Shown piece after piece: positions 12,154-49,303 of a DNA stretch of 64,000 nt; position 1 is the stretch's first letter; each line of letters opens with the position of its first letter. Both the position numbers and the translations under genes were made by a program. Source of the DNA: Strigamia acuminata (lineage: Eukaryota > Arthropoda > Chilopoda > Geophilomorpha > Linotaeniidae). Below the pieces are notes generated by a model. The model saw only the letters and a list, made by a program, of their open reading frames with translations, was not told where the DNA came from and made no database searches. Location: assembly GCA_949358305.1 (NCBI GenBank), contig OX442314.1:54197369-54261368 (forward strand). The letters run 5' to 3'.

Positions 12154-13169
12154 TGTGGTGACCCGACTGGACCGGGGTCAACGAAGAGTTTCTCTCGTGA
12201 CCTCGTTTCGGGTGTAAGGGGAGCCGCAAGCGCGTCTCCCTTCCCTCAGTGCATTGACATCTAGTCAATGGACAGGCGTCTGCCCTGAGGGAGTGGGGAT
12301 GGCTCGTCCACCCCACCATTGGGTGATTCCGGTCACCTGTCAACCCCGCTTTGTGCAAAGGAATGTGCCTTGCACTGAGCGGGCAGAACCAACACAACCA
12401 TCAAACGAGAAACACACGTAAACCCGTCGTCCTACAAGATCAGGCCCAAGTAAATATACTGGGATTGACCAAGGACAAAGGACAATTTACCGTGAGTACG
12501 TTTGGTCAGTGTCAAACTCCGCAGAGTAACCTGCGAGATAAGATTACCACACTATTTTAGCACACCAGCTAGAAATAGTAAAAACCACTCCAGTTTAGCG
12601 AGTTGTGCAGACAAACGGTCGCACAAGCCTAAACTGCAGTAAAACCACGACGAGCGTTCCCGCCGCTGTGTGACCGCCGGGAGCCAGAAGAGTCCGCCGC
12701 TGTGTGATCGCCGGACACCACACAAAAACCTAGACAACAGACCGAAGTAAGCCTTTTAACTAAGCATTCACTCGCGCCTGACCAGCGTGAGCCCGAAGGA
12801 CCAGCCAGAGACGAGCCGAGTACGCCATATTGCCACGCCGGCCCAAGACGACATCACGTTGCCACAACGAGGACGCCATCTTGGACACAACCGAGACAAC
12901 AGACGACCTCGCCGATTCCAGCCAGCTTTCATCTTACCTTTACCTTTCCATTTCCCATCACCCATTCCGATTTACCTTTTACTTACCTCTCATATATATA
13001 TATAAGATATATCTGTACATTGTCCCACAGAATAAATCTATATTATATTTTACCTTTTATATCTGTGTAATCATTTCTTTGGGTAAACCGCTTGAGACAA
13101 AGCGGTAGTGAGTTAGTCGAATTAAGTAATCAACCCACGAGTTAGCGACGGTTAGAGTTGAGCGCGACA
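12154..13169 (+). repeat. 5' LTR, copy 1 (1016 bp)
   Basis: It starts TGTGGTGACCCGAC and ends GAGCGCGACA. A TATA-like run (about 12990-13002) lies shortly before an AATAAA polyadenylation signal at 13031-13036, placing the U3/R boundary near 13020. It matches 24638-25653 base for base as far as can be read. Confidence 0.96.
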
Positions 13170-13171
13170 CG

Positions 13172-13189
13172 TGGGGGCCTGTCCGGGAT
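13172..13189 (+). promoter_or_regulatory. Primer binding site, tRNA-Pro-like
   Basis: TGGGGGCCTGTCCGGGAT starts two bases after the LTR. It differs only at positions 8-9 from the well-known tRNA-Pro binding site of gammaretroviruses, so a proline tRNA with a changed acceptor stem is the likely primer. The tRNA itself is not in this window. Confidence 0.75.
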
Positions 13190-13241
13190 CAAGTTGAATA
13201 ACTGATTCTAACCTGTGATTACATCATACCCAAAGCAAGAA

Positions 13242-16200
13242 ATGGCAGATAATACTCGAGTAACAGACTCCGACTCAGACGTTAACAAACGAGCCGGTAG
13301 TCGCAAAGGAACCGACTATCATTTGAGGTCGGGAGGTCCTTTGCCCAAAGCCTCAGCGCACGAGTCTAGGCAAAAACGCCGCAAGGCCAAGCCAGACCGA
13401 CGAAGCGCTTCGGAGGCATCGCACCCGTCTCACGCCGAGACGAGGCAGCGATTAGACGAGACGGAGCGGAGTGAGGATCCGTCCCACCCCAAACCGCCGC
13501 GTCCCAATCGTGACGGCGAGACGAGCGGAAACGAGGTTTTATCCCGTAACCAATCGCCTCGTCTAACGCACGATACCGAGGTGAGCGATCCGAGAGCGAC
13601 GTCTTCGATACAAAGGACGGCGTCCGACACGACAGCGAATTCAGCGCTAAACACGCCAGTTACACACAGTCGACCAGCCTCGGTAATGTCTGAAGGGCAC
13701 AAGTCCAACTCGTCCTCTGTCAAGCGTGTTTCGAGCCAGCCTTACAGCGTCTCGGGCACCTTGATTGATGCGATGCAATTGGCACAAGCGGAGGGAGTGA
13801 GATACACCCTTCCGACGGGAAAGATTACAGTGTACGAAACGTTACAAATCGTACGTGCAGCTTTAAAAGCGCACAGTGTATCCCCACAAATCACCATTGT
13901 TGAAGGTGCACACGCTCAACAATTGGTTGATTCCGCTCAATTTGAAGCGGATGCAGAGAACGAGGCTCGACAAGCCATTCGCGAGAGACGGAGGAAGCTG
14001 GCGGAAAGAGAAGCGCAAGCTCTCGAGTACGGCAGAACCCAGCCCAATCCGACTACTCCCGAGGAGGTAGAAATAGTTGACCGAGCCCTGAGAGCACATC
14101 GATATGCTTTCCACTCGCAACAAGAAGCAGAGCGAGCATTTATGGCCAGATTGCGACGAGATGACCCGAAATCCGTTCGCAAACCAGAGGTCAGTTCATC
14201 CGAGCTGTCCGACGAGAGCCTAGAGGGAGACCCAAAGCGCACGCCGAAGGCCAAACCCAAACCCCAGCCGGAGAGGGCAACACCAGCTACTCCGCGCAAG
14301 AGAGATGCGTCGGCCAGAGAACAACAAACTCGGCCCCGCATGCAAGCTCTCGATTCGGCCACAAATAATGCGATAACGCGGTTAATCAACGCTAATAATG
14401 CTAGGCGAAATGAAGAGCAAGCTCTCACAAGCCAACAACATGATAATCCGCAAGGGACTGAGTGGCAACAACCAGTGCCCATCCTTAAAGACGACGAGTC
14501 GTCAAGGAGACAATCGCATGATCGCACCTCTTCGCGAGAAGAAGGCAAACGCGAGGAAAGACCGAAATATTATCACTACGGAAATAGTGATTCGTCGTCA
14601 GATGGACTGGAGTCAAATGCACCCAGTCATCACGATTCGGAGAGAGGTTCCGGAGAAAGACGAAGGGAAAGAGAACGCGATGAACGCAGGGAAAAGGAAC
14701 GTGACGCCCGACGTAGGGGCCGGAAAGAGTCGAACTCTTCACGGCGCAACCCGCCACGCCGCTCACCGTCCCCCGACCCCAGCTCCGACCCCTCATCCAA
14801 CGACGACAGACGAAAGGATAAATCAAGTAATCGCCGGAAGAGATCCAACTCTCCGCGCGATAGAGAGAAACGACGTCGATCGGAAAATAGCGACCACCGA
14901 CGGGAGGAGTTTCAGGACCTTCCCCGACAAAGCGCGTTTACCGATTCGACGGGTCGGCAGTATACGATGGGAGAGCTTGGAAGAGCACTACTTGGCTCGT
15001 TAAAAGCCGAGGGAATCGATCTGAGCAAACGAAATGATCGTAATCGTAACACTGGTGACCGCGTAAAGAAAAAATATGCTGTCTCCCGGCGTGATACAAT
15101 GAGTGTCACCGGGAATATTAGGTGGCAATTTTATATTCAGAACCGTTTCGACGGGTCATGGAAAGCGGGAGATCGCTTCCTTGACGAAGTAATTCGAATT
15201 AAGACTGCCACTAAAGCCACCGTAGGAGACATGCTCACCCACGGTATTGTCGAGCTAATGACAGGCTCGGCACGTGAGTGGTACCAAGGATTGAAAGGCG
15301 TCAATTGGGACGACTTTTTAATGAGATTCGACCTGCGCTACGGCGAGACACCCGAAGAGGTGAGCCGAAAGATGCGAGGTCTTCGCCAGATGCCTGGTGA
15401 AACCATAATGGATTACGACATTCGCGCCAGATTGTTGTTCGAAAAGGCCCCGATGGAATTTCATGCCACGGGATTCAACCTTTTCTTTCTCGGCGGTTTG
15501 TCGGAGTACTCGCAACGGGTGTTACTTGAAGAAAGGGCACCGACAGGAGGCAGCTACGAGGAGATGAGCGCCTTCCTGTTCGAGAACACGATAGATATCG
15601 AGAAGAGGTATTATTCCGCTTTACCAGAAGCGGAGAAAGCAGCAACCGCTAAACGTCTCAAGTTGAGTGCGGAAAGATATGGGGCGACAGATAAGATTAT
15701 GCGCCCTACTGAATATCTTAGCGGTATAATGGAGCTGGCAGAAGCTAGCGTTGGTTTACAAATAAAAAATAAACTGACATCCACGCTGCCTTCCAACCCT
15801 TTGGCCGCCCCTAAAAAGGCACCGACAGCGTCAGCCATGCAAGCGACACTGGAGGAGGTCAAGGAGGGGGAGGAAGCCGGACAAGATACCGGAAAATCAG
15901 ACGAAAAAGAAGAAAAAGACGATTATTCGACGGACGAAGAAATACGAAGCTATCGCGATACCTTATCAACGGGTTGCGATGAAGAAGGACCGCTAGTACA
16001 TCTCATCCATCGAGATAGAGCGGTAGAAGAATTTCGCGCCAGGTTAAAACCAAATGCCGGCCGAATTCCGAAGTATTTTCGGAAAAATTACACGCCACCG
16101 TCGAAAGCAGACCCTGAAAAGAAAAAATCGACTGAAGCCCCAAGAGACAAATCAAATATTCGCTGTTTCAAGTGTAACCAACCGGGTCACTATTCCAATG

Positions 16201-16325
16201 AGTGCCCAAGAACAGCGAAAGAAGACGCTAAGTTTGACGCGATAATGAAGCAGATGGCAGAGATTAAACTCGCCATGGCAAAAAACGAGTCAAAAAACGA
16301 GTCAGCGCAGGCGGCGAAGAAGTAA
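13242..16325 (+). CDS. Gag polyprotein, copy 1 (1027 aa)
   Basis: Structural protein of the retrotransposon particle. The frame is open from 13215, but the first ATG with a good context is at 13242 (MADNTRVTDSD), which I take as the start. The N-terminal half is hydrophilic and low in complexity. Residues about 468-560 are an Arg/Glu/Ser-rich tract resembling RS/RE domains. Residues about 620-720 hold the retrotransposon Gag core (RWQFYIQNRFDGSWKAGD, W-DDFLMRFDLRYGE). A single CCHC zinc knuckle, CFKCNQPGHYSNEC, lies at about 975-988. Gag ends 23 bases before the first pol ATG and in a different frame; two A_AAA_AAC heptamers near its end imply a -1 frameshift into pol. At over 1000 residues it is much longer than typical Ty3/gypsy Gags. 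Confidence 0.94.
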   Translation: MADNTRVTDSDSDVNKRAGSRKGTDYHLRSGGPLPKASAHESRQKRRKAKPDRRSASEASHPSHAETRQRLDETERSEDPSHPKPPRPNRDGETSGNEVLSRNQSPRLTHDTEVSDPRATSSIQRTASDTTANSALNTPVTHSRPASVMSEGHKSNSSSVKRVSSQPYSVSGTLIDAMQLAQAEGVRYTLPTGKITVYETLQIVRAALKAHSVSPQITIVEGAHAQQLVDSAQFEADAENEARQAIRERRRKLAEREAQALEYGRTQPNPTTPEEVEIVDRALRAHRYAFHSQQEAERAFMARLRRDDPKSVRKPEVSSSELSDESLEGDPKRTPKAKPKPQPERATPATPRKRDASAREQQTRPRMQALDSATNNAITRLINANNARRNEEQALTSQQHDNPQGTEWQQPVPILKDDESSRRQSHDRTSSREEGKREERPKYYHYGNSDSSSDGLESNAPSHHDSERGSGERRRERERDERREKERDARRRGRKESNSSRRNPPRRSPSPDPSSDPSSNDDRRKDKSSNRRKRSNSPRDREKRRRSENSDHRREEFQDLPRQSAFTDSTGRQYTMGELGRALLGSLKAEGIDLSKRNDRNRNTGDRVKKKYAVSRRDTMSVTGNIRWQFYIQNRFDGSWKAGDRFLDEVIRIKTATKATVGDMLTHGIVELMTGSAREWYQGLKGVNWDDFLMRFDLRYGETPEEVSRKMRGLRQMPGETIMDYDIRARLLFEKAPMEFHATGFNLFFLGGLSEYSQRVLLEERAPTGGSYEEMSAFLFENTIDIEKRYYSALPEAEKAATAKRLKLSAERYGATDKIMRPTEYLSGIMELAEASVGLQIKNKLTSTLPSNPLAAPKKAPTASAMQATLEEVKEGEEAGQDTGKSDEKEEKDDYSTDEEIRSYRDTLSTGCDEEGPLVHLIHRDRAVEEFRARLKPNAGRIPKYFRKNYTPPSKADPEKKKSTEAPRDKSNIRCFKCNQPGHYSNECPRTAKEDAKFDAIMKQMAEIKLAMAKNESKNESAQAAKK
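16280..16298 (+). promoter_or_regulatory. Two tandem -1 ribosomal frameshift heptamers
   Basis: A AAA AAC occurs in the gag frame at 16280-16286 and again at 16292-16298. This is a classical simultaneous-slippage heptamer. After a -1 slip at either one, the frame is open through the gag stop (16323-16325) and runs into the pol ATG at 16349, giving Gag-Pol. The same arrangement is kept in copy 2. I did not fold the downstream RNA. Confidence 0.8.
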
Positions 16326-16348
16326 TTTCTCGACCGTCTGCGCCATTC

Positions 16349-19300
16349 ATGAAGAAGAAGGGGTTTAACAAAGGGTTCGATAGGCCGCCACCAGTCAAAG
16401 AAATGGGTAGTGAAATAGCTAACGCCCAAATTCAAGACAGGGCCAACAACGCTTTGCAGGTAATCACCGCAAACGCTGAGGCTGAGGCGGAAGAACCGAA
16501 CCTACTGCTTGAAGAATTACCTCAAGTAGTCGAAGACACAGAAGAATTTCGTGTTTTCATGTGCAACGTGGCGGTCGAATACACCAACCGCCTATGCATG
16601 TTGCCCATGACAATAGAACGTGAAAAAATTATGGGACTGCTAGACTCGGGAGCAGATCGCTCGTTCGTTTCCGAAGACATAGTAGCATCATTGGGTCTCA
16701 CCGATAAGATAAAAGGCGTTAATAAAAATATACGTCTAAAAACCGCCAACGGAATGGCGCGTCCAAAAGGAGTTATATTATTGACCATGGAGTGGCTCGG
16801 AGGGGTAGAACAGCACCCTTTCCTGGTCCTGCCCACATGCGACAGAAGTTTTCTGTTGGGCTTAGACCTCATGGCGTCAATGGAAATACAACCAAATCCA
16901 ATAACGAAATCTTGGAATTATATCAGAAATGATAAGGAAAGACCCGCAATTGTCGTGCCACCAGCTCTTGTAAAAGAAGCGGCCGACAAGACACAGTGGG
17001 AGAAAGGCCTAAAGAAATTCGTTCAAGAGTACGATTTTAAAGCATTCGTAACAGAATTGCAACGGGACAATGTAGTGGAAACGCTTGTCGCCGACGCCGC
17101 TTTAGAATTAAACGAAGCAGCAGCCCTACGAAGGGTCCTACTTAAATATGAGGGGATCCTGTCGAAAAAACCGGGCCGAACGAATAGGGCTATTCACGAA
17201 ATTAAATTGACGGATAATAAACCTATACGAGTTGCGTATAAGGGAATGAACCCGCAAAAACGTGAAATAGTGCAAAAAATGTGCCAAGAAATGCTAGACA
17301 GTGGCATTGTCTCCGAGGCCCAGGGAGAATACGCGACGCAAGTTGTGCTCGTGATGCGCCCGGGCTCGGACCCACGCCTATGCATTGATTACCGCCCATT
17401 AAACGCGGTGACAGAGATAGATCCCATACAGATGCCGTCTATCGAATCCATTTTAAGAGAGCTTAGCCCCTTTTCTTGGGTTACGACGATGGATCTGTCA
17501 AAGGGATACTGGCAAGTGGAGATGAGGCCAGAGGATAAGCTAAAAACAGCATTTTACTCGCCAATTGGACGGTTGATGTTCAACGTCATGCCATTTGGTT
17601 TAGTGAACGCTCCCAGTACCTTTCAGAGACTAATCGAAAGCGTATTGGGTGATATCCTGCACCAGTTTGTATGGGCATACCTAGATGACATAGTTATTGC
17701 CTCTAATACATTCGAAGAGCACGTTGAGCACATCGACCAAGTGCTCACCCGGCTGGCAAAAGCTGGGTTACACGTGCACCCGGGCAAGAGCAAGTTCTGT
17801 CGAAAGGAGCTTGCCTTCCTGGGTTATCGCATTGGAGTCAATGGTTTAGCTATTGGCCCCGAAAAAATCGATGCGATTAATCGTTTCCCACCACCCGAGG
17901 ACGTTAAAGGTGTCCAACGGTTTATGGGAATGATAAACTTCTTTGGCAGGTTGCTACCGGGTCTAGCTGAAGTGGCAGCCCCAGTTACCGACCTCCTGAA
18001 GAATGAAAACGAATTTGTATGGTCAAATGAGTGCAACATCGCATTTAATGCGATAAAGAGGATGCTGACGGAAGTCGGCGTAATGCCTCTACCCGACTTA
18101 AACCGGCCGTTCATATTACATACGGACGCCAGCAGAGTTGGGTTGGGAGCCGCGTTGCTTCAAACACACGTGCGCAACGGAGTCAAACAAGACCTGCCGT
18201 GCATGTTTATAAGTCGCAAACTCCAAGGCGCTGAAAAAAATTACAACGCCACAGAGTTGGAGTGTTTGGCAGTTGTGTGGGCCATAAGGAAATTCAGAGA
18301 TTATCTCGAATATACCAAATTTGTGGTCCACACAGATCATCAAGCGTTACAATGGCTGATGAAATTAAAGGAGCCAGCCGGTCGACTAGCCAGATGGCAG
18401 TTAGAACTGATGGCATGCGACTTGACCATTCAATACAAGCCCGGCAAATATAACGTCGTGGCTGACGCTCTGTCACGGGCACCAGTGTCAGATCCAATCG
18501 ACGCTGACGATGATGGCGAGGATGACTCCCGCATCATTTATTGCCCTACGAGTTGTCACCGTTGGGATTTAAGGAAGATGAATGAAATTCCCACCGCGTC
18601 TCCAGCAGACGTAAAATTCTGTGGATTCTGGACGCGATTATACCAACCAGCTGCTGACAATTACCCAAATGCAAAGAAGGAATTTAAGCTAGAGCGGAGA
18701 ATAAATGACCCGCTTCTAAGCGCCTTCCACGCTCGTGTCGGAAAGCAAATGAAAAGCAATCCCCCAACAAGGGAGGAAATAATTGTGCAACAAAAATTAG
18801 ACAAAAAATGTCAGGACAGAGCTAGATTCGTACTGACAGGAAAATATCCGCCCAACTTAACCAGAAGGCAGAAGCGTCGTTATGCACACGAATCCATAGA
18901 TTACCTATTGGATGACGGCCTTTTGGTGAAACATCACCCAAATCACCAAGATGACTTGAGTGAATCGGACACCGCAGTAAAGGTAGTAATACCTGCTTCC
19001 TTAATCGGTCGCGTGCTGTGGTTGTTACACGGGCACCCGCTTGCGAGCCATGCGGGAGTAAGCAGAACACTCTATCGTGCTACACAGCTTTTTCACTGGA
19101 CAGGGATGAAAAAAGATATTGCTCTTTTTGTCCACCAATGTCAGCGATGTCAAGCGTGCAAGCCGAGGAGTAAATCACCATTCGAAACTATTTTCTTAGG
19201 GCCTTACGCGCCTTTTGATTGTTTAAGTGTCGATGTGATGGGCCCAAAACCCGTTACGGGAAATAAAAATGCGTACATTATCGTTATAATGGACGTAGCA

Positions 19301-20419
19301 ACTCGTTGGCCCGAGTTGTACGCCGTCGCTAGACCTTCAGCAGAAAAAATCGTTGAATGCATCTACGACGTAGCGTTACGTTATGGATTTCCACGTAAAA
19401 TAATATCCGATAACGGACCCCAATTTATCTCGAAAATTTGGGGTAAGTTTTGTGAGAAATTCGGGATTGTGGCGTCACATACTTCGACCTACAACCCCAG
19501 AACAAATCCCGTTGAGCGACTCAACAGGGACATTAAATATGCACTAAGCATATTCACTGACATCCACAATAGGTGGGATGAATACTTGAGGGAGATCGCG
19601 TTCAGCATACGAACAACAGTCTCGAGGACGAGAGATTTTTCTCCGGCCTACCTCAACTTCGCCCGAGAGCTACGAGTGCCTTGGGACCCACGAGTGGCAG
19701 AGTCGGTAAATGTGGTGGACCCAGAGAAACCACATGAGTATGTGTATAAATTGGAACAAACAATTTCGAGCACATACAAACATATGATGGCGCACATTTT
19801 TAACATGCGCGACCGCATTTTACAAGATAAAAGCGGTGGAAAATTCGTGAATTTCGAGATCAATGATTTGGTGTGGAAAGATGCACACACCCTCTCAAAT
19901 GCAGCGAGAGGGATCACCGCCAGCTTGGCCGACAAGAGAGATGGTCCGTATGTGATCATCGGCAAGCATGGCGGTAACGCGTATAAATTACGTAAGCTCG
20001 AGGACAATACCGAGCATAAATCGATACAAGTACGAGAGTTAACTCCGTACATTCCGGAATTCCCGCAAGAAATGTGGGCCAAAGGCCAAGTCAAGTCTAA
20101 AACTGACGGCCAAATCGTCGATATGTTCGCTGGCGAGTCGGAAAAAGCACCGCCAAGTGACAACGAGGAGTATTTCGACGCCCCTTCACCTCCGGTCAAC
20201 GAGATCGTTGAATCCGTTCCGGATCCAATTTTGGTCGGGGGGGAAACAGGAGAAACTCCTGAAACAAACACAAAAAACACGGATGAAAAAGAAAACAATA
20301 ATGAGGAGGTACAGACACAAAAAACAACAAAAAATATCGTACCTGCCTCGATCCGTAACCTGCGACCAAAAAGAGATAATCCGTTTATAAAAGGCGGAAA
20401 GGTCGTAGGAAAGAAGTAA
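16349..20419 (+). CDS. Pol polyprotein, copy 1 (1356 aa): PR-RT-RNase H-INT
   Basis: Replicates and integrates the element. Domains in order: aspartic protease with LLDSGAD at residues 97-103; reverse transcriptase with DPRLCIDYR, DLSKGYWQVEM near 381 and the catalytic YLDD at 444-447; RNase H with LHTDAS near 590 and TDHQALQWL near 664; integrase with an HHCC zinc finger near 890-935, first catalytic Asp (LSVDVMGP) near 962, DNGPQF near 1021 and catalytic Glu (NPVERLN) near 1056. All key residues are present. The acidic, low-complexity C-terminal tail (about 1260-1356) is where copies 1 and 2 differ most. ATG 16349 is only the first Met; translation more likely enters by frameshift from gag. 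Confidence 0.96.
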   Translation: MKKKGFNKGFDRPPPVKEMGSEIANAQIQDRANNALQVITANAEAEAEEPNLLLEELPQVVEDTEEFRVFMCNVAVEYTNRLCMLPMTIEREKIMGLLDSGADRSFVSEDIVASLGLTDKIKGVNKNIRLKTANGMARPKGVILLTMEWLGGVEQHPFLVLPTCDRSFLLGLDLMASMEIQPNPITKSWNYIRNDKERPAIVVPPALVKEAADKTQWEKGLKKFVQEYDFKAFVTELQRDNVVETLVADAALELNEAAALRRVLLKYEGILSKKPGRTNRAIHEIKLTDNKPIRVAYKGMNPQKREIVQKMCQEMLDSGIVSEAQGEYATQVVLVMRPGSDPRLCIDYRPLNAVTEIDPIQMPSIESILRELSPFSWVTTMDLSKGYWQVEMRPEDKLKTAFYSPIGRLMFNVMPFGLVNAPSTFQRLIESVLGDILHQFVWAYLDDIVIASNTFEEHVEHIDQVLTRLAKAGLHVHPGKSKFCRKELAFLGYRIGVNGLAIGPEKIDAINRFPPPEDVKGVQRFMGMINFFGRLLPGLAEVAAPVTDLLKNENEFVWSNECNIAFNAIKRMLTEVGVMPLPDLNRPFILHTDASRVGLGAALLQTHVRNGVKQDLPCMFISRKLQGAEKNYNATELECLAVVWAIRKFRDYLEYTKFVVHTDHQALQWLMKLKEPAGRLARWQLELMACDLTIQYKPGKYNVVADALSRAPVSDPIDADDDGEDDSRIIYCPTSCHRWDLRKMNEIPTASPADVKFCGFWTRLYQPAADNYPNAKKEFKLERRINDPLLSAFHARVGKQMKSNPPTREEIIVQQKLDKKCQDRARFVLTGKYPPNLTRRQKRRYAHESIDYLLDDGLLVKHHPNHQDDLSESDTAVKVVIPASLIGRVLWLLHGHPLASHAGVSRTLYRATQLFHWTGMKKDIALFVHQCQRCQACKPRSKSPFETIFLGPYAPFDCLSVDVMGPKPVTGNKNAYIIVIMDVATRWPELYAVARPSAEKIVECIYDVALRYGFPRKIISDNGPQFISKIWGKFCEKFGIVASHTSTYNPRTNPVERLNRDIKYALSIFTDIHNRWDEYLREIAFSIRTTVSRTRDFSPAYLNFARELRVPWDPRVAESVNVVDPEKPHEYVYKLEQTISSTYKHMMAHIFNMRDRILQDKSGGKFVNFEINDLVWKDAHTLSNAARGITASLADKRDGPYVIIGKHGGNAYKLRKLEDNTEHKSIQVRELTPYIPEFPQEMWAKGQVKSKTDGQIVDMFAGESEKAPPSDNEEYFDAPSPPVNEIVESVPDPILVGGETGETPETNTKNTDEKENNNEEVQTQKTTKNIVPASIRNLRPKRDNPFIKGGKVVGKK

Positions 20420-20897
20420 AATAAATTACGAGTCGATGGCGGCACTAAAAATAAATTCTAATCGACCGATAGTGCAAGCCATCACGTTGCGAGACTCGAA
20501 GAAAATTTCGCTAAGTCCAACAAAGCGATGTCGGTCGAATTCACGTCACAAGATGGCGTGGAAACGCGGGACCCGTAGCAAAATTATCGGCACGGGTCGG
20601 ATACCGCGTGCAAAAGACCCCGTAGCAGCAATCGCGCACGGGAGTGAGAACAAAGGAGACCCGTAGCGTAACATGCGCACGGGTAGGTGCGCACTAGTCT
20701 CAAACACCCGGGTTCTGGAGTATATTACCCAGAATCCATCGCGATTACCTCGTGTTCACACGGACTTCCGCTTTTCACAGCTGATCACTGCATTCGTGCG
20801 TGATCCTCGTTTTTAACGTTTTTACCGAGTTTTTTTGAGATAGTTTTATCATCCTTTTTTCAATCGTGATTGAGCTTTTTTGTGCGCGCTCCTCGCC
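20420..20897 (+). promoter_or_regulatory. Region between pol and ORF3: possible splice acceptor or internal promoter
   Basis: A GC-rich stretch with repeated GGGACCCGTAGC / GACCCCGTAGCA words (20568-20665) is followed by a pyrimidine tract and CAG at 20771-20780 (CTTCCGCTTTTCACAG), a good 3' splice-site candidate for joining a leader exon from the LTR transcript to the ORF3 message. A TATA-like GAGTATATTA near 20718 is the alternative, an internal promoter. The CAG and its pyrimidine tract are conserved in copy 2. Use of either signal is inferred. Confidence 0.45.
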
Positions 20898-20987
20898 ATG
20901 GACGAGGAAGAGAACGACGTGCTTGCCATCGAGCACGAGGACGAGGCAAACTGGGACCACGATGTAAACCAAGTCCCACCCGATCAG
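20898..20987 (+). CDS. ORF3 exon 1 (30 codons), copy 1
   Basis: An ATG in a strong context (CTCGCCATGG) opens a short, very acidic frame (MDEEENDVLAIEHEDEAN...). At 20985-20993 it meets a splice-donor match, CAG|GTAGAA, with the exon ending in phase 0. The acceptor before 21836 is also phase 0, so exon 2 would be read in frame from its Met. In copy 2 the exon is preserved, but the frame just past the donor has acquired a stop that copy 1 lacks, which fits a reading frame that ends at the donor. Splicing is inferred, not shown. Confidence 0.7.
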
Positions 20988-21835
20988 GTAGAAGTCGGCA
21001 TCGGCACACGAGAATTAGTTCCGTGCTGCTGAAAAAGAAATTTTGTTTGACTAATACCTGACATGAGTGCTTTGCACTCGCAATAGCGTATAATTAATTA
21101 TTAACCGCGATCGCTCACACGATCGTATTTTTTCCTTGTTAATTTGTTTTCGGGATGCGATCGTAGACTTCACGTCGCCTCGCGTCTCGAAAATTCCTCA
21201 TGACATGAGTCACGAGCGAGACAATGGGCTCGAGCCATAAATAATTTTATGACAAGGGGAGAATATTCTGTAAAAGAATATTTTTCTCCACAAGTAATTT
21301 GACGCATCAAATTGATGCAACTTAACATTCGTACGATGAATTTTTCGATGTGTTAGATAAATTTAATTTGACTTTAACTTTTTGTTAAAAAATTAGACAA
21401 AGTCCGACTTCGGAATAATTCTTTATTAGGTTTATTTATTTAATAAAATTTCGACAAGCACATTTATTGTGCAATTTTAGTAATAATTTACACCCGACGA
21501 ATTCTTTTTACGAATGACTGATAATTATTAATTTAATTATTAGTAATGTCCTAATTAACGTTAGAATTAATTTGAAGTAAAATCTGATGATAAGAATCCA
21601 GATTAAAGGCTCGATTCCGTCTCGCTGTGCGTTTTGGACATGAGACAGATTTTTTTACGTGATGACTTCTCTTTTTCTATCCGACGAGGGACAATTCGTC
21701 CTACGTTTGCACCGATAGACAGGAATCGGTCTCGACGGACGGCTGCACGTATCGGCAACGTCCCTCGAAACCAACCATTTATCTACGTATTTAATATTAA
21801 CTTTTTATTAATTGTTTATTTCTCCACCCTTCCAG
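20988..21835 (+). other. Putative 848-bp intron of ORF3, copy 1
   Basis: It begins GTAGAA and ends with a pyrimidine-rich tract and CCAG (TTTCTCCACCCTTCCAG) directly before the ORF3 ATG. It is markedly AT-rich, especially 21240-21600, while the coding regions on both sides are GC-rich, as expected for an intron. It has no long open frame. The same boundaries are present in copy 2 at 40636-41480. Confidence 0.7.
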
Positions 21836-24601
21836 ATGGCATTACGTAAAACATGGGGACCACTAGACCCCGCTTGCATCACTCGTGGCGGGATATTTCG
21901 AGGCGCGCTGCCCGAATTTTACCGACGATGTTTCGGCGAGGACGCCGACCCTTGGCGCCTGCGAATACTACATTCCCGATGCATCGCCCGACGTTGGGTA
22001 CGAGATTGCACGCTCCTGGACACGTTCCCGGAGGGGATGCGCGAAGGCATCGCCACAGAGTTAGCTCGTGACGATGACCCGAAATCGCCAATTTTCCACC
22101 CCGGATTGTCAAGTCAGTACACTGGCAACCCGGCGGAGGAACACGTGCTGCACGCGTGGCGAGCAGCCGAGACAGAAGAGGCCCGTGAGGCCATCTATCA
22201 GCATTATAGACAACAGCTGGTGGATACGGCTGCGGCAGTGGCCGAGCGCATCCTCCAAAACGAGGGGATGACCGCGGATGATATTCATCTGTGGTTTGAG
22301 AGGCTGCGATTGGGGGAGAGTACGCCCCAGTGGAGACCTCGGATGGGAATTTTAACGTCCCAAGCCGAGATGTGGCAGCTCCACCACCTGGGGATTTTGG
22401 GGCCCAAGAGCAGCTACCCGCGGAAGAGCAAGCGCTCCAAAGGCGCCGGGGACAGCCAGTCGCGTTCCCCGGCGACAACCAAGAAGCAGCGTGTCGCTCA
22501 AAACACGACTGAAAGCAACGAAGCTGGGCCATCCACTAGTACAGTGCGTGACCCTTCGCAGTATTCCCGACCGCGAATTTTCGTAAACCGTCAGATTAAA
22601 GACGGTAAGGAGTGCAAGGAGGTTTGGATGTCTGGTGACGAAGAGCGAGTCTCTCGTCCCAGCACTTCTAGACGTCCGCTGACTCATCGCGAGCAGCGGA
22701 AAAAAGATCGCAAGGAGCGATACTTCGCGAGGTGCGAAGCTCGGGGCCGTCCCATCCCCGAACCCGCCTACATCTCCAAGAGAGCGGGTCGACGAAGTGG
22801 TAGCCAGTCAGGTGAGCGAAACGTCCCAGCGGCAGATACGCGGGACCTTCGCGAGATTCTGACTCAGATGAAGCGGACGAAACTGACACGTTTCGATCCC
22901 GCAATGAAACACGCCAGGAAGATGGGTGTTGTCACCGACGGAATGGTGACCCCACACGAGGTGGCAAGGTGGCTCGCAGACTATATAAATTCGCGACCGC
23001 GACCCGATGGCATGCCAACCGCCATCGTGCAGCCCTCGAGCTCCGGACAACATCTCCCGGCGCCCCAAGTCGCAATGACTGGAGTGCAGACGACGGAGAC
23101 GCCACCACCGCCGACGCAGCCACCACCACCGCTGCCGACGCCACCGCTGCCGACCAAGACGCAGCCGCCTCCGAACCTGCCGCCGCCGTCGTTGCTGAAT
23201 TCGAGCGATCCGCCGGATTTACCCACCGACCGCTCAGTCCTTCTCCCCGTTGGACAGAGCATTATGCAGGAATGTCGAGCCAATTTGACCGGCATTTACA
23301 GGCCGAGCCGACCCCGTCCCGGTTCCTCGGCCCTGTTCTTCGAGAGGCGAGACGAAGAAGCGCGACTCGCGAGAGAAGCCGCCAACCCGACTATCTCCGA
23401 GCTCTCAGCGTTTCGCTTCGTGATGGAAGACCCAAGAGTCTCCGCACCCGCCTTGCGAGGTGTGGATCAAGCCCAGCGATATTTCATCGAATGGGCAACG
23501 GCGATGATGAGTAAGCTCTCGTGTGCCTTCACTGCGGATTCGGAGCGATCGAATCCAGTGAATCGTCGCAGCCTACAGCTATCATTGACCAAGGTCATGA
23601 TGCAGCTGCTAACCCCAGCACTCTTCGGAGAAGGGCGTCAGGCGATGGCCGCATGGTCTGTCGTGGACAGAGAGGGTGTACAGGTTCCCCGTGCACTCCT
23701 CGCAGAGTGGAGCTCCATTCTGCCCGACCCTGTGTTGACTCGCTACGAGCTAACCAGGGATGTGGTAAACCCAGAATTTGAAGGGTACAAGTTGCGAAGC
23801 ACGGCGTTTCGTTACACCTCCGCCACCTGGACAGCGGCGCCTACCCAACAACTGCGCGCCTTGACCATCCAGACGGAAGAATCGGCAGAGGATGTAGACA
23901 TGGTGATCTCGCCGACGAGCGGAGTTCCGATTCCGCCAACGATGCCTGCGGAGATATCCCCGCAAGGACCCGCCCTGTTTGAAGTGGCGGGTAAACCCAA
24001 GCGCTTGCTGTGCCGAACGCCACCCGTCAGGTCCGTCGAGCAAACGAAGCCGACACCGCCCGAGGCCCCACCGGCTCGAGCGGCGACAACGACGCAAGCC
24101 GTGATTCCCGCGGCCACCCAGAAGCCGAAGCCGGCACCGCCTCCACCAGACTATTACGGGCGAATCATCGAAGAGTTTCCCCATCTTTCGATGACAACGG
24201 CGACCAGGAGGTTTATCCTCGCACAACGGGATAAAGGCAAATCGGTCTTCATCTGGCTTCACAACCAGATACGGAAGACTAAGGACCTCATCTTCCACCA
24301 GAGGTTGCTGAGAGCCCACCGTGCACCAGTGACGCCAGCGGAAGCCAATGCCATCCGGCATACGAACACCGGCTTCTCCGCCTACATCCCGAGCGTTTGG
24401 TTACACGAGAGGACGCGTGCCCCGCATGAGCCAGTTGACGGCCATGCATTATGCTTCATTACGGAGCATGAGGACCCCCGAGATCGGTCCTCGGCGCTAG
24501 TAGGCGATCTACCCGCGCCACCCGGCACTCAACCGCCTGTCCCTGGAGTGAGTTACGCCCAGGTGACGGACTCAGTGTCGGGTCCCCCAGAAAAGAAGTG
24601 A
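21836..24601 (+). CDS. ORF3 main exon, copy 1 (921 aa), unknown function
   Basis: The function is not recognised. The frame is open from 21812, but ATG 21836 follows the splice acceptor directly. Visible features, numbered from this Met: an N-terminal Trp/Arg/Cys-containing region; basic, nuclear-signal-like clusters near 194-220 (PRKSKRSK, KKQRV) and 284-305; a proline-rich segment near 421-455; a conserved helical-looking core at about 515-675; and a Pro/Ala-rich C-terminal third. I see no signal peptide, membrane anchor or cysteine pattern, so it does not resemble an errantivirus envelope. It occupies the env position between pol and the polypurine tract, and its core recurs in a relic at 58022-58868. 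Roles in nuclear import, RNA handling or countering host silencing are possible but unproven. Confidence 0.85.
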   Translation: MALRKTWGPLDPACITRGGIFRGALPEFYRRCFGEDADPWRLRILHSRCIARRWVRDCTLLDTFPEGMREGIATELARDDDPKSPIFHPGLSSQYTGNPAEEHVLHAWRAAETEEAREAIYQHYRQQLVDTAAAVAERILQNEGMTADDIHLWFERLRLGESTPQWRPRMGILTSQAEMWQLHHLGILGPKSSYPRKSKRSKGAGDSQSRSPATTKKQRVAQNTTESNEAGPSTSTVRDPSQYSRPRIFVNRQIKDGKECKEVWMSGDEERVSRPSTSRRPLTHREQRKKDRKERYFARCEARGRPIPEPAYISKRAGRRSGSQSGERNVPAADTRDLREILTQMKRTKLTRFDPAMKHARKMGVVTDGMVTPHEVARWLADYINSRPRPDGMPTAIVQPSSSGQHLPAPQVAMTGVQTTETPPPPTQPPPPLPTPPLPTKTQPPPNLPPPSLLNSSDPPDLPTDRSVLLPVGQSIMQECRANLTGIYRPSRPRPGSSALFFERRDEEARLAREAANPTISELSAFRFVMEDPRVSAPALRGVDQAQRYFIEWATAMMSKLSCAFTADSERSNPVNRRSLQLSLTKVMMQLLTPALFGEGRQAMAAWSVVDREGVQVPRALLAEWSSILPDPVLTRYELTRDVVNPEFEGYKLRSTAFRYTSATWTAAPTQQLRALTIQTEESAEDVDMVISPTSGVPIPPTMPAEISPQGPALFEVAGKPKRLLCRTPPVRSVEQTKPTPPEAPPARAATTTQAVIPAATQKPKPAPPPPDYYGRIIEEFPHLSMTTATRRFILAQRDKGKSVFIWLHNQIRKTKDLIFHQRLLRAHRAPVTPAEANAIRHTNTGFSAYIPSVWLHERTRAPHEPVDGHALCFITEHEDPRDRSSALVGDLPAPPGTQPPVPGVSYAQVTDSVSGPPEKK

Positions 24602-24626
24602 TCGCTCAGCCCCACGGTCTGAGCTC

Positions 24627-24637
24627 GGAGGGGGAAG
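24627..24637 (+). promoter_or_regulatory. Polypurine tract, copy 1
   Basis: GGAGGGGGAAG ends at the base before the 3' LTR. This is the expected plus-strand primer for reverse transcription. Confidence 0.9.
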
Positions 24638-25653
24638 TGTGGTGACCCGACTGGACCGGGGTCAACGAAGAGTTTCTCTCGTGACCTCGTTTCGGGTGTA
24701 AGGGGAGCCGCAAGCGCGTCTCCCTTCCCTCAGTGCATTGACATCTAGTCAATGGACAGGCGTCTGCCCTGAGGGAGTGGGGATGGCTCGTCCACCCCAC
24801 CATTGGGTGATTCCGGTCACCTGTCAACCCCGCTTTGTGCAAAGGAATGTGCCTTGCACTGAGCGGGCAGAACCAACACAACCATCAAACGAGAAACACA
24901 CGTAAACCCGTCGTCCTACAAGATCAGGCCCAAGTAAATATACTGGGATTGACCAAGGACAAAGGACAATTTACCGTGAGTACGTTTGGTCAGTGTCAAA
25001 CTCCGCAGAGTAACCTGCGAGATAAGATTACCACACTATTTTAGCACACCAGCTAGAAATAGTAAAAACCACTCCAGTTTAGCGAGTTGTGCAGACAAAC
25101 GGTCGCACAAGCCTAAACTGCAGTAAAACCACGACGAGCGTTCCCGCCGCTGTGTGACCGCCGGGAGCCAGAAGAGTCCGCCGCTGTGTGATCGCCGGAC
25201 ACCACACAAAAACCTAGACAACAGACCGAAGTAAGCCTTTTAACTAAGCATTCACTCGCGCCTGACCAGCGTGAGCCCGAAGGACCAGCCAGAGACGAGC
25301 CGAGTACGCCATATTGCCACGCCGGCCCAAGACGACATCACGTTGCCACAACGAGGACGCCATCTTGGACACAACCGAGACAACAGACGACCTCGCCGAT
25401 TCCAGCCAGCTTTCATCTTACCTTTACCTTTCCATTTCCCATCACCCATTCCGATTTACCTTTTACTTACCTCTCATATATATATATAAGATATATCTGT
25501 ACATTGTCCCACAGAATAAATCTATATTATATTTTACCTTTTATATCTGTGTAATCATTTCTTTGGGTAAACCGCTTGAGACAAAGCGGTAGTGAGTTAG
25601 TCGAATTAAGTAATCAACCCACGAGTTAGCGACGGTTAGAGTTGAGCGCGACA
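24638..25653 (+). repeat. 3' LTR, copy 1 (1016 bp)
   Basis: Identical by eye to 12154-13169, with the same TG...CA ends, TATA-like run and AATAAA. It is followed by the target duplication AGCT. Confidence 0.96.
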
Positions 25654-36816: not shown

Positions 36817-37833
36817 TGTCGCGCCCCTACTTCGCTCTCGCTGACTCGTGGGTTGATTACTTAATTCGACTAACTCACTACCGCTTCGTTCGAGCGGTTT
36901 ACCCAAAGAAATGATTACACAGATATAAAAGGTAAAATATAATATAGATTTATTCTGTGGGACAATGTACAGATATATCTTATATATATATATATGAAAG
37001 GTAAGTAAAAGGTAAATCGGAATGGGTGATGGGAATGGAAAGGTAAAGGTAAGATGAAAGCTGGCTGGGATCGGCGAGGTCGTCTGTTGTCTCGTTCGTG
37101 TCCAAGATGGCGTCCTCGTTGTGGCAACGTGATGTCGTCTTGGGCCGGCGTGGCAATATGGCGTCCTCGGCTCGTCTCTGGCTGGTCCTTCGGGCTCACG
37201 CTGGTCAGGCGCGAGTGAATGCTTAGTTAAAAGGCTTACTTCGGTCTGTTGTCTAGGTTTTTGTGTGGTGTCCGGCGATCACACAGCGGCGGACTCTTCT
37301 GGCTCCCGGCGGTCACACAGCGGCGGGAACGCTCGTCGTGGTTTTACTGCAGTTTAGGCTTGTGCGACCGTTTGTCTGCACAACTCGCTAAACTGGAGTG
37401 GTTTTTACTATTTCTAGCTGGTGTGCTAAAATAGTGTGGTAATCTTATCTCGCAGGTTACTCTGCGGAGTTTGACACTGACCAAACGTACTCACGGTAAA
37501 TTGTCCTTTGTCCTTGGTCAATCCCAGTATATTTACTTGGGCCTGATCTTGTAGGACGACGGGTTTTACGTGTGTTTCTCGTTTGATGGTTGTGTTGGTT
37601 CTGCCCGCTCAGTGCAAGGCACATTCCTTTGCACAAAGCGGGGTTGACAGGTGACCGGAATCACCCAATGGTGGGGTGGACGAGCCATCCCCACTCCCTC
37701 AGGGCAGACGCCTGTCCATTGACTAGATGTCAATGCACTGAGGGAAGGGAGACGCGCTTGCGGCTCCCCTTACACCCGAAACGAGGTCACGAGAGAAACT
37801 CTTCGTTGACCCCGGTCCAGTCGGGTCACCACA
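36817..37833 (-). repeat. 3' LTR, copy 2 (1017 bp)
   Basis: It differs from the 5' LTR of this copy by one visible substitution (37689 region versus 50178 region) and one two-base unit in the TA microsatellite. A polypurine tract adjoins it at 37834-37844. Confidence 0.95.
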
Positions 37834-37869
37834 CTTCCCCCTCCGAGCTCAGACCGTGGGGCTGAGCGA

Positions 37870-40635
37870 TCACTTCTTTTCTGGGGGACCCGACACTGAG
37901 TCCGTCACCTGGGCGTAACTCACTCCAGGGACAGGCGGTTGAGTGCCGGGTGGCGCGGGTAGATCGCCTACTAGCGCCGAGGACCGATCACGGGGGTCCT
38001 CATGCTCCGTAATGAAACATAATGCATGGCCGTCAACTGGCTCATGCGGGGCACGCGTCCTCTCGTGTAACCAAACGCTCGGGATGTAGGCGGAGAAGCC
38101 GGTGTTCGTATGCCGGATGGCATTGGCTTCCGCTGGCGTCACTGGCGCACGGTGGGCTCTCAGCAACCTCTGGTGGAAGATGAGGTCTTTAGTCTTCCGG
38201 ATCTGGTTGTGAAGCCAGATGAAGACCGATTTGCCTTTGTCCCGCTGCGCGAGGATAAACCTCCTGGTCGCCGTCGTCATCGAAAGATGGGGAAACTCGT
38301 CGATGATTCGCCCATAATAGTCTGGTGGAGGCGGTGCCGGCTTCGGCTTCTGGGTGGCCGCGGGAATCACTGCTTGCGTTGTTGTCGCCGCTCGGGCCGG
38401 TGGGGTCCCGGGCGGTGTCGGCTTCGTTTGCTCGACGGACCTGACGGGTGGCGTTCGGCACAGCAAGCGCTTTGGTTTACCCGCCACTTCGAACAGGGCG
38501 GGTCCTTGCGGGGATATCTCCGCAGGCATCGGTGGCGGAATCGGAACTCCGCTCGTCGGCGAGATCACCATGTCTACATCCTCTGCCGATTCTTCCGTCT
38601 GGATGGTCAAGGCGCGCAGTTGTTGGGTAGGCGCCGCTGTCCAGGTGGCGGAGGTGTAACGAAACGCCGTGCTTCGCAACTTGTACCCTTCAAATTCTGG
38701 GTTTACCACATCCCTGGTTAGCTCGTAGCGAGTCAACACAGGGTCGGGCAGAATGGAGCTCCACTCTGCGAGGAGTGCACGGGGAACCTGTACACCCTCT
38801 CTGTCCACGACAGACCATGCGGCCATCGACTGACGCCCTTCTCCGAAGAGTGCTGGGGTTAGCAGCTGCATCATGACCTTGGTCAATGATAACTGTAGGC
38901 TGCGACGATTCACTGGATTCGATCGCTCTGAATCCGCAGTGAAGGCACGCGAGAGCTTACTCATCATCGCGATTGCCCATTCGATAAAATATCGTTGTGT
39001 TTGATCCACACCTCGCAAGGCGGGCGCGGAGACTCTTGGGTCTTCCATCACGAAGCGAAACGCTGAGAGCTCGGAGATAGTCGGGTTGGCGGCTTCTCTC
39101 GCGAGTCGCGCTTCTTCGTCTCGCCTCTCGAAGAACAGGGCCGAGGAACCGGGTCGGGGTCGGCTCGGCCTGTAAATGTCGGTCAAATTGGCTCGACATT
39201 CCTGCATAATGCTCTGTCCAACGGGGAGAAGGACTGAGCGGTCGGTGGGTAAATCCGGCGGATCGCTCGAATTCAGCAACGACGGCGGCGGCAGGTTCGG
39301 AGGCGGCTGCGTCTTGGTCGGCAGCGTTGGCGTCGGCAGCGGTGGTGGTGGCTGCGTCGGCGGTGGTGGCGTCTCCGTCGTCTGCACCCCAGTCATTGCG
39401 ACTTGGGGCGCCGGGAGATGTTGTTCGGAGCTTGAGGGCTGCACGATGGCGGTTGGCATGCCATCGGGTCGCGGTCGCGAATTTATGTAGTCTGCGAGCC
39501 ACCTTGCCACCTCGTGTGGGGTCACCATTCCGTCGGTGACAACACCCATCTTCCTGGCGTGTTTCATCGCGGGATCGAAACGTGTCAGTTTCGTCCGCTT
39601 CATCTGAGTCAGAATCTCGCGAAGGTCCCGCGTATCTGCCGCTGGGACGTTTCGCTCACCTGACTGGCTACCACTTCGTCGACCCGCTCTCTTGGAGATG
39701 TAGGCGGGTTCGGGGATGGGACGGCCCCGAGCTTCGCACCTCGCGAAGTATCGCTCCTTGCGATCTCTTTTCCGCTGCTCGCGATGAGTCAGCGGACGTC
39801 TAGAAGTGCTGGGACGAGAGACTCGCTCTTCGTCACCAGACATCCAAACCTCCTTGCACTCCTTACCGTCTTTAATCTGACGGTTTACGAAAATTCGCGG
39901 TCGGGAATACTGCGAAGGGTCACGCACCGTACTAGTGGATGGCCCAGCTTCGTTGCCTTCAGTCGTGTTTTGAGTGACACGCTGCTTCTTGGTTGTCACC
40001 GGGGAACGCGACTGGCTGTTCCCGGCGCCTTTGGAGCGCTTGCGCTTCCGCGGGTAGCTGCTCTTGGGCCCCAAAATCCCCAGGTGGTGGAGCTGCCACA
40101 TCTCGGCTTGGGACGTTAAAATTCCCATCCGAGGTCTCCACTGGGGCGTACTCTCCCCCAATCGCAGTCTCTCAAACCACAGATGAATATCATCCGCGGT
40201 CATCCCCTCGTTTTGGAGGATGCGCTCGGCCACTGCCGTAGCGGTATCCACCAGCTGTTGCCTATACTGCTGATAGATGGCCTCACGGGCCTCTTCTGTC
40301 TCGGCTGCTCGCCACGCATGCAGCACGTGTTCCTCCGCCGGGTTGCCAGTGTACTGACTTGACAATCCGGGGTGGAAAATTGGCGATTTCGGGTCATCGT
40401 CACGAGCTAACTCTGTGGCGATGCCTTCGCGCATCCCCTCCGGGAACGTGTCCAGGAGCGTGCAGTCTCGTACCCAACGTCGGGCGATGCATCGGGAATG
40501 TAGTATTCGCAGGCGCCAAGGGTCGGCGTCCTCGCCGAAACATCGTCGGTAAAATTCGGGCAGCGCGCCTCGAAATATCCCGCCACGAGCGATGCAAGCG
40601 GGGTCTAATGGTCCCCATGTTCTACGTAATGCCAT
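37870..40635 (-). CDS. ORF3 main exon, copy 2 (921 aa), unknown function
   Basis: Same length as the copy 1 protein, with only scattered substitutions, for example in the basic cluster and the proline-rich segment. The ATG at 40635 again follows a pyrimidine tract and CCAG directly. A full-length open frame in both copies argues that the product matters to the element. For the domain description see the entry at 21836-24601. No function is recognised. Confidence 0.85.
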   Translation of the reverse strand: MALRRTWGPLDPACIARGGIFRGALPEFYRRCFGEDADPWRLRILHSRCIARRWVRDCTLLDTFPEGMREGIATELARDDDPKSPIFHPGLSSQYTGNPAEEHVLHAWRAAETEEAREAIYQQYRQQLVDTATAVAERILQNEGMTADDIHLWFERLRLGESTPQWRPRMGILTSQAEMWQLHHLGILGPKSSYPRKRKRSKGAGNSQSRSPVTTKKQRVTQNTTEGNEAGPSTSTVRDPSQYSRPRIFVNRQIKDGKECKEVWMSGDEERVSRPSTSRRPLTHREQRKRDRKERYFARCEARGRPIPEPAYISKRAGRRSGSQSGERNVPAADTRDLREILTQMKRTKLTRFDPAMKHARKMGVVTDGMVTPHEVARWLADYINSRPRPDGMPTAIVQPSSSEQHLPAPQVAMTGVQTTETPPPPTQPPPPLPTPTLPTKTQPPPNLPPPSLLNSSDPPDLPTDRSVLLPVGQSIMQECRANLTDIYRPSRPRPGSSALFFERRDEEARLAREAANPTISELSAFRFVMEDPRVSAPALRGVDQTQRYFIEWAIAMMSKLSRAFTADSERSNPVNRRSLQLSLTKVMMQLLTPALFGEGRQSMAAWSVVDREGVQVPRALLAEWSSILPDPVLTRYELTRDVVNPEFEGYKLRSTAFRYTSATWTAAPTQQLRALTIQTEESAEDVDMVISPTSGVPIPPPMPAEISPQGPALFEVAGKPKRLLCRTPPVRSVEQTKPTPPGTPPARAATTTQAVIPAATQKPKPAPPPPDYYGRIIDEFPHLSMTTATRRFILAQRDKGKSVFIWLHNQIRKTKDLIFHQRLLRAHRAPVTPAEANAIRHTNTGFSAYIPSVWLHERTRAPHEPVDGHALCFITEHEDPRDRSSALVGDLPAPPGTQPPVPGVSYAQVTDSVSGPPEKK

Positions 40636-41480
40636 CTGGAAGGATGGAGAAATAAACAATTAATAAAAAGTTAATATTAAATACGTAGATAAATGGTTGG
40701 TTTCGAGGGACGTTGCCGATACGTGCAGCCGTCCGTCGAGACCGATTCCTGTCTATCGGTGCAAACGTAGGACGAATTGTCCCTCGTCGGATAGAAAAAG
40801 AGAAGTCATCACGTAAAAATCTGTCTCATGTCCAAAACGCACAGCGAGACGGAATCGAGCCTTTAATCTGGATTCTTATCATCAGATTTTACTTCAAATT
40901 AATTCTAACGTTAATTAGGACATTACTAATAATTAAATTAATAATTATCAGTCATTCGTAAAAAGAATTCGTCGGGTGTAAATTATTACTAAAATTGCAC
41001 AATAAATGTGCTTGTCGAAATTTTATTAAATAAATAAACCTAATAAAGAATTATTCCGAAGTCGGACTTTGTCTAATTTTTTAAAAGAAGTTAAAGTCAA
41101 ATTAAATTTATCTAACACATCGAAAAATTCATTGTACGAATGTTAAGTTGCATCAATTTGATGCGTCAAATTACTTGTGGAGAAAAATATTCTTTTACAG
41201 AATATTCTCCCCTTGTCATAAAATTATTTATGGCTCGAGCCCATTGTCTCGCTCGTGACTCATGTCATGAGGAATTTTCGAGACGCGAGGCGACGTGAAG
41301 TCTGCGATCGCACCCCGAAAACAAATTAACAAGGAAAAAATACGATTGTGTGAGCGATCGCGGTTAATAATTAATTATACGCTATTGTGAGTGCAAAGCA
41401 CTCATGTCAGGTATTAGTCAAACAAAATTTCTTCTTCAGCAGCACGGAACTAATTCTCATGTGCCGATGCCGACTTCTAC
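40636..41480 (-). other. Putative ORF3 intron, copy 2 (845 bp)
   Basis: The donor and acceptor are in the same positions as in copy 1. It is AT-rich with several small indels and substitutions relative to copy 1, more than in the flanking coding sequence. Confidence 0.7.
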
Positions 41481-41570
41481 CTGATCGGGTGGGACTTGGT
41501 TTACATCGTGGTCCCAGTTTGCCTCGTCCTCGTGCTCGATGGCAAGCACGTCGTTCTCTTCCTCGTCCAT
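41481..41570 (-). CDS. ORF3 exon 1 (30 codons), copy 2
   Basis: The ATG at 41570 with the same strong context, the acidic 30-codon frame and the CAG|GTAGAA donor are all preserved. Nine codons past the donor a TGA appears where copy 1 has CGA, so the conserved frame ends at the donor. Confidence 0.7.
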
Positions 41571-46124: not shown

Positions 46125-46147
46125 GAATGGCGCAGACGGTCGAGAAG

Positions 46148-49231: not shown

Positions 49232-49303
49232 TTCTTGCTTTGGGTATGATGTAATCACAGGTTAGAATCAGTTATTCAACTTGATCCCGGACAGGCCCCC
49301 ACG

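Follow-up and report, generated by a model that had tools for sequence, protein, structure and literature searches.

We analyzed a 64,000-nucleotide stretch of the genome of Strigamia acuminata (Chilopoda, Geophilomorpha; contig OX442314.1, positions 54,197,369 to 54,261,368), hereinafter the window, which contains two recent copies of one long terminal repeat (LTR) retrotransposon, E1 and E2, in opposite orientations (Table 1). In each copy, gag and pol are followed, after a spacer of about 1.4 kb, by a third open reading frame (ORF3), the subject of this work. The initial annotation of the locus reported that both 13.5-kb copies keep a 921-codon frame after pol, and this is the case: the frame is intact from its ATG (position 21836 in E1 and 40635 in E2), and the insertions are recent, with 0/1016 differences within the LTR pair of E1 and 1 substitution in 1019 aligned columns, plus one 2-base gap, within that of E2. 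The span originally assigned to the third gene (20420-24601) contains ORF3 but also takes in the spacer.

Table 1. Features of the two retrotransposon copies and of a degraded related element (coordinates refer to the window)
Feature	Coordinates	Strand	Remarks
Retrotransposon copy E1	12154..25653	+	13,500 bp; flanked by the 4-bp target duplication AGCT (12150-12153 and 25654-25657)
5' LTR, E1	12154..13169	+	TG...CA, 1016 bp
Putative tRNA primer-binding site, E1	13172..13189	+	begins TGG, 2 bases past the LTR; identified by eye
gag, E1	13242..16325	+	1027 amino acids; Retrotrans_gag and CCHC knuckle (Pfam)
pol, E1	16349..20419	+	1356 amino acids; protease, reverse transcriptase (RT), RNase H, integrase (Pfam)
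Conserved non-coding spacer, pol to ORF3	20512..21835	+	15/1318 aligned sites differ between E1 and E2
Bulged-A hairpin 1	20572..20596	+	CCCGTAGC-loop-GCACGGG
Bulged-A hairpin 2	20619..20642	+	
Bulged-A hairpin 3	20660..20683	+	
Possible 30-codon upstream exon	20898..20987	+	ends CAG/GTAGAA, phase 0 to ORF3
Predicted splice acceptor	21816..21835	+	ends at the ORF3 ATG
ORF3, E1	21836..24601	+	921 amino acids, no known domain
ORF3 conserved core	23603..23770	+	residues ~590-645, alignment trailing to 708
ORF3 conserved C-terminal segment	24173..24331	+	residues ~780-832
3' LTR, E1	24638..25653	+	same sequence as the 5' LTR
Retrotransposon copy E2	36817..50322	-	flanked by the target duplication GGCG (+ strand)
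ORF3, E2	37870..40635	-	921 amino acids, 98% identical to ORF3 of E1
Three hairpins, E2 copies	41793..41904	-	
Degraded pol, third related element	56094..56550	+	tblastn within the window
Degraded ORF3 core, third element	58341..58865	+	tblastn and alignment
Degraded ORF3 C-terminal segment, third element	58900..59100	+	tblastn and alignment

The order of the Pfam domains in pol (protease, RT, RNase H and integrase; 1355 amino acids in E2 versus 1356 in E1), along with the TG...CA LTRs and a target duplication within the 4-6 bp range, identifies E1 and E2 as Ty3/gypsy elements (Metaviridae). The 3' LTR of E1 is preceded by a purine-rich tract, recognized by eye, and a paralogous repeat at 52898-53312 preserves the empty site of E2, with a single GGCG. 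No tRNA gene and no Rfam family at the gathering score were found in the window. When the LTRs of E1 and E2 are compared with each other, a single site differs in the first 600 bp (12154-12753) and 18 sites differ in the remainder, six of these in the terminal 16 bases, a stretch that cannot be aligned with confidence.

ORF3 is a real gene that evolves under purifying selection similar to that on pol, given that its frame is far longer than expected by chance, that its changes are strongly skewed toward synonymous ones and that a degraded copy exists in a distant element. When the DNA of ORF3 was shuffled 500 times with its dinucleotides preserved, none of the six reading frames stayed open for more than 488 codons, compared with 921 in ORF3. 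Between E1 and E2, synonymous divergence is about 0.05 in gag, pol and ORF3 alike, whereas the ratio of nonsynonymous to synonymous substitution rates (dN/dS) is 0.13, 0.23 and 0.21, respectively. Only 21 ORF3 codons differ in the encoded amino acid, against 36.2 expected under neutral simulation, in which the 55 differences in this gene were placed randomly within their own base and CpG classes; none of the 5000 simulations yielded so low a number, and 4128 of them introduced a stop codon. The constraint is unevenly distributed, with a dN/dS of 0.13 in the last 421 codons versus 0.32 in the first 430, and 0.77 in the 70 proline-rich codons in the middle, a value that reflects three changes only. 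The lack of homologs in the protein collection would be expected of a passenger or chance frame; nevertheless, that explanation is refuted by the low dN/dS, the neutral simulations, the shuffle lengths and the divergent copy, and it is barely credible.

The divergent copy belongs to a third, degraded element of the window. Its pol pieces (56094-56550) show 44% and 59% identity in tblastn comparisons and are followed, in the same order as after pol in E1, by ORF3-like pieces at 58308-58511 (E value 6e-5) and 58909-59064 (E value 0.023). Piecewise alignment yielded z scores of 8.1 and 9.1 for the core and the C-terminal segment, respectively, with 0/500 shuffles reaching either score; a candidate upstream core match at 58025-58375 did not rise above shuffles (z -0.8) and was dropped. 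From these alignment scores it follows that the conserved parts of ORF3 are residues ~590-645 and 780-832, so that the core initially placed at residues 515-675 does exist, while the parts with a relative outside E1 and E2 are differently bounded. For the N-terminal half, no counterpart was detected, even beside the third copy. Judging from these remnants, ORF3 predates the E1/E2 family. The window also contains a related, truncated gag-pol on the reverse strand (5136-1985; 43% identity to E1 in pol and about 23% in gag), which ends inside RT and therefore is silent on whether an ORF3 followed. A match of the proline-rich part of ORF3 to 9129-8818 (E value 7e-4) was obtained with the low-complexity filter off and is not counted.

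The position of ORF3 after pol and the presence of an env-style splice acceptor are what one would expect of an envelope gene. The protein sequence points elsewhere. Across the whole protein, the maximum 19-residue hydropathy is 1.07 and no window exceeds 1.6 (a hydropathy calculation, with no dedicated signal-peptide program); there is no furin-type RX[KR]R site and no CxxC motif, and the 10 cysteines are scattered, with three NxS/T sites. Thus, the initial observation that ORF3 lacks a membrane anchor and an envelope cysteine pattern holds, and the hydropathy, cleavage-site and cysteine tests rule out a recognizable envelope. That ORF3 is an envelope or entry protein of extreme divergence appears highly improbable; only a signal or anchor spliced on from another exon could rescue this reading.

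Database searches did not assign ORF3 to any family. Pfam searches detected nothing in ORF3 of E1, only Peptidase_M16_C at an E value of 0.26, under its cut-off, in ORF3 of E2, and only chance-level matches with pieces of the protein, such as Lipase_GDSL_2 at an E value of 0.1 with the N-terminal 200 residues. A sequence search of the PDB returned one match at an E value of 0.79 with the whole ORF3 and none with a profile of the core. Among 5.8 billion proteins, words from residues 1-500 retrieved no protein at E <= 0.001 (7988 candidates scored), and words from residues 515-865 retrieved none at E <= 1 (7997 scored); because these searches require shared 5-residue words, distant relatives can be missed. 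One scan of viral contigs gave no pattern match, another matched 24 stretches, none of them confirmed, and 6 stretches matched in bacterial and archaeal contigs, again with none confirmed; these scans reach only close relatives or shared words. The structure prediction of the core proposed in the initial annotation was run, and no fold can be named: the models of the whole ORF3 and of the core, built with 4 and 3 sequences, respectively, have predicted local distance difference test (pLDDT) scores of 37 and 48, too low for any fold, and Foldseek found nothing at E <= 0.001 with the core model. Taken together, these results support the view that ORF3 encodes a non-envelope, soluble-looking protein without a recognized family. 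The initial annotation had tied its reading to the lack of an envelope, capsid or host-family match and to the existence of ORF3 in another related element; it stands on both points, since Pfam, PDB and protein searches found no such match and one divergent element (56-59 kb) carries ORF3.

These searches also bear on two other explanations of a soluble third protein. ORF3 might be an enzyme captured from the host or from another element, as in the LTR elements of bdelloid rotifers, where GDSL esterases and DEDDy exonucleases provide a precedent (PMC5408684), and its GC content at third codon positions (0.64) indeed is above that of gag (0.51) and pol (0.49). However, the absence of any Pfam domain on the whole E1 ORF3, the chance level of the Lipase_GDSL_2 match, on which a GDSL esterase was rejected, and the N-terminal half without a detected relative make such a capture very unlikely. 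The other possibility is that ORF3 is a soluble particle protein, acting alongside Gag in the cytoplasm as a further structural or packaging factor. The protein is large, has extended stretches rich in proline and a single PPDY motif, is encoded after pol and is under selection as strong as that on pol; motifs of the PPxY type can serve as late domains. Conversely, ORF3 does not resemble the Gag of its own element (best E value 2.5), and Pfam detects no gag, capsid or matrix domain in it, on which grounds a Gag or capsid relative was rejected. With so much proline in the protein, a lone PPxY carries little weight, and a role in the particle seems unlikely.

The expression of ORF3 can be approached through predicted splice sites, which were scored with a simple table of splice-site frequencies. 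The acceptor that ends exactly at the ORF3 ATG ranks first among the 878 AG sites between the 5' LTR and the start of the 3' LTR and is retained in E2, where its pyrimidine tract carries a single C/T difference; this coincidence of the top acceptor with the start codon suggests that ORF3 is probably translated from a spliced subgenomic RNA. The two top candidate donors upstream of the acceptor (13580 and 15359, both GTGAGC) lie in gag, are in phase 0 and are identical in E2, although GAG codons, used by both, partly account for the shared phase. Other candidate donors are located in pol (19442), in the LTR (sites such as 12746) and in the spacer (20987). The last of these would close a possible 30-codon exon that is the same in E1 and E2, which is unsurprising given that the spacer has just 15/1318 changes.

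From 20512 to 21835, the spacer has changed at only 15/1318 sites, compared with a synonymous divergence near 0.05 in the three genes. It also harbors a compact candidate RNA signal. Each copy contains three tandem hairpins with identical arms (CCCGTAGC and GCACGGG), a bulged A and differing loops of 9-10 nucleotides; the pattern occurs three times per copy and nowhere else in the window, where 0.00 occurrences are expected. A descriptor scan for bulged hairpins that recur with unchanged arms at least 3 times in 150 nucleotides retrieved only these hairpins and the simple tandem array at 7.4-7.8 kb. The combination of constant arms and varied loops suggests that selection acts on the stem. The spacer itself has no Rfam match at E <= 1.

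At its upstream end, the first 92 bases of the spacer (20420-20511) have diverged at 22/91 aligned sites. More generally, the two copies become much more divergent at the C-terminus of pol and the start of the spacer (20326-20511), and the divergence falls sharply after it; pol residues 1324-1356 hold 10 of the 31 amino acid differences in pol. Such a jump is what one would expect if two element lineages had recombined with a boundary here.

The same features of the spacer could be interpreted at the DNA level, with ORF3 as a transcriptional regulator that has its own internal promoter and with the inverted repeats as its binding sites. The spacer is conserved, the repeated palindromes are found just upstream of the possible short exon and a GT...AG intron, and ORF3 contains four K[KR]x[KR] motifs versus a mean of 0.63 in shuffles. 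Against this stand the lack of a DNA-binding domain detectable with Pfam and the bulged A and differing loops, which suit RNA at least equally well; we consider a regulator of this kind quite unlikely.

The reading that we favor, tentatively and at somewhat short of an even chance, is that ORF3 is a nuclear factor that handles unspliced genomic RNA, in the manner of CERV, the third protein of the Caenorhabditis elegans retrotransposon Cer1; we do not claim that ORF3 is a CERV. This reading draws on the selection on ORF3 and the length of its frame, the divergent copy behind a related pol, the top-ranked acceptor with its phase-0 donors in gag, the absence of a membrane segment, the four K[KR]x[KR] motifs, and the slow change and repeated hairpins of the spacer. 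Under this scheme, ORF3 would be translated from a spliced subgenomic RNA with the acceptor at its own ATG and a donor located in gag, in pol, in the LTR or where the possible 30-codon spacer exon ends. The protein would enter the nucleus, as does CERV, and would enable genomic RNA that is unspliced and still contains its intron to leave the nucleus, to serve as template for gag-pol and to be packaged. Cis signals for this handling would be provided by the three bulged-A hairpins, which, if the donor precedes them, would be intronic and hence would mark only unspliced RNA. A bolder variant, in which ORF3 and the triple hairpin constitute a protein-RNA pair that arose independently of Rev and CERV, distinguishes unspliced genomic RNA from spliced ORF3 mRNA and exports the former, with ORF3 founding an undescribed family, is improbable on the present sequence evidence.

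Several observations weigh against the proposed export function. The basic, nuclear-signal-like clusters mentioned in the initial annotation hold up as a motif count, but not as peak basic density, which is equaled in 524/2000 shuffles, and matches resembling nuclear export signals (7 versus 6.7 per shuffle) are at the level of chance. In the 921 amino acids of ORF3, there is neither a leucine zipper (L-x6-L-x6-L-x6-L) nor a C4-type cysteine pattern. The donor of the 30-codon exon is weak (rank 26/598), and the donor with the highest score overall (22811) is inside ORF3, downstream of the acceptor. For the hairpins, the expectation of 0.00 overstates the case because the pattern was written after seeing the sequence, and no matching hairpins were found in the region of the third copy, degraded as it is. 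The spacer is not the only non-coding part to change slowly, since the first 600 bp of the LTR, with 1 differing site, is less diverged still. Finally, the spacer folds more strongly than its shuffles (z -3.4, -5.5 and -4.1), but a special folding of this region was rejected, given that gag, pol and ORF3 stand out from their shuffles to the same degree: the mean z in 200-nucleotide windows is -1.89 in gag, -2.43 in pol, -2.13 in the spacer and -2.00 in ORF3, with -0.46 in the flanks.

Most of the E1 interval (12154-25653) thus shows stronger predicted RNA folding than dinucleotide shuffles (mean z near -2), and base composition differs between element and flanks, which limits this comparison. 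With respect to relatives of pol, 651 of the 7987 proteins scored against it reach E <= 1e-60, of which the best 120 are listed; scans of viral contigs and of phages found none. A quick tree of the RT-RNase H region, with 120/123 proteins used (3 were dropped for too little coverage of this region) and the other pol of the window (30593-33022) excluded, places E1 and E2 together on a long branch (1.62) that groups with none of the 118 fetched relatives. This position is unsure and may be a long-branch effect, inasmuch as the program warned of long branches meeting.

The rest of the window is rich in other repeats. The segment 28560-33354 is occupied by another Ty3/gypsy-like element, distinct from E1 and compact, with two overlapping frames and terminal repeats of 175 bp that are 97% alike; 51564-52673 encodes a Copia-type gag with CCHC knuckles; 62436-63005 contains a fragment of DUF5641, a domain known from BEL/Pao elements; and 7448-7767 is a tandem array with a 20-bp unit.

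Non-envelope third genes are already known from Cer1 and from bdelloid rotifers, so ORF3 is not the first of its kind: the initial view of it as an unusual, undescribed factor is upheld to the extent that no family is recognized and overstated as regards its unusualness. The bdelloid LTR elements are retrovirus-like and resemble E1 in carrying a non-envelope third gene downstream of pol, although these genes encode GDSL esterases or DEDDy exonucleases (PMC5408684), neither of which is matched by ORF3 in Pfam. Additional ORFs of plant elements have been reviewed (PMC7264820), and we did not recognize a description of the ORF3 protein in the open-licence literature. Troyka, with 3-bp duplications and CG...CG ends as described (PMC12440569), does not fit E1 and E2.

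The env-F genes of errantiviruses, insect endogenous retroviruses, are likewise third ORFs, with a main exon that is spliced to varied upstream exons, namely, a short leader-peptide exon, an AU dinucleotide or gag (PMC12992720); for ORF3, splicing is predicted. Unlike env-F, ORF3 lacks a hydrophobic N-terminus, a transmembrane segment (by hydropathy) and a furin-type site. LTR retrotransposons of the MDG1 group also encode accessory proteins, sORF1 and sORF2, whose dN/dS is low, and sORF1 is nuclear. These proteins differ from ORF3 in being about 110 and 70 amino acids long; their frames precede gag, some Lepidoptera excepted, and the RNA that encodes them shows no sign of being spliced. In addition, sORF2 is transmembrane and fusogen-like (PMC11952523).

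Cer1 is an element of the Ty3/gypsy type. Its CERV protein is translated from a spliced mRNA, localizes to the nucleus and is required for the export of genomic RNA; with a stop codon in cerv, the genomic RNA stays in the nucleus and GAG is abolished (PMC10309623). Like ORF3, CERV is a novel, fast-evolving non-envelope protein, and its main or last exon occupies the 3' end of the element behind a splice acceptor, a predicted one in the case of ORF3. CERV also bears a motif that resembles a nuclear localization signal (PMC10309623), to which the K[KR]x[KR] motifs of ORF3 correspond by motif count. Both elements have an unusually large Gag (690 amino acids in Cer1 versus 1027 in E1), and the N-terminal exons of CERV are shared with gag, where E1 has the conserved phase-0 candidate donors 13580 and 15359. 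In contrast, CERV has 517 amino acids, a leucine zipper, a Cys-rich loop and predicted H, M and G domains, whereas the 921-residue ORF3 has no zipper or cysteine set, and the likeness is one of description and motifs only, with ORF3 models at the low pLDDT given above. We know of no sequence relation between ORF3 and HIV-1 Rev. Rev and its RNA target serve as a working analogy only, that of a protein and a structured RNA that mark unspliced RNA for export (PMC10309623).

To the initial annotation, the present analysis adds the top-ranking predicted acceptor at the start codon of ORF3, the conserved spacer together with its hairpin triplet and, at 56-59 kb, a third copy in degraded form. To our knowledge, few cases of Rev-independent export of intron-containing genomic RNA are known among LTR retrotransposons. 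The Discussion of the CERV study closes by asking whether other 3' ORFs export genomic RNA (PMC10309623), and with an intact, selected third gene, one clear acceptor and a compact hairpin candidate, the centipede element makes this question accessible to a direct reporter test.

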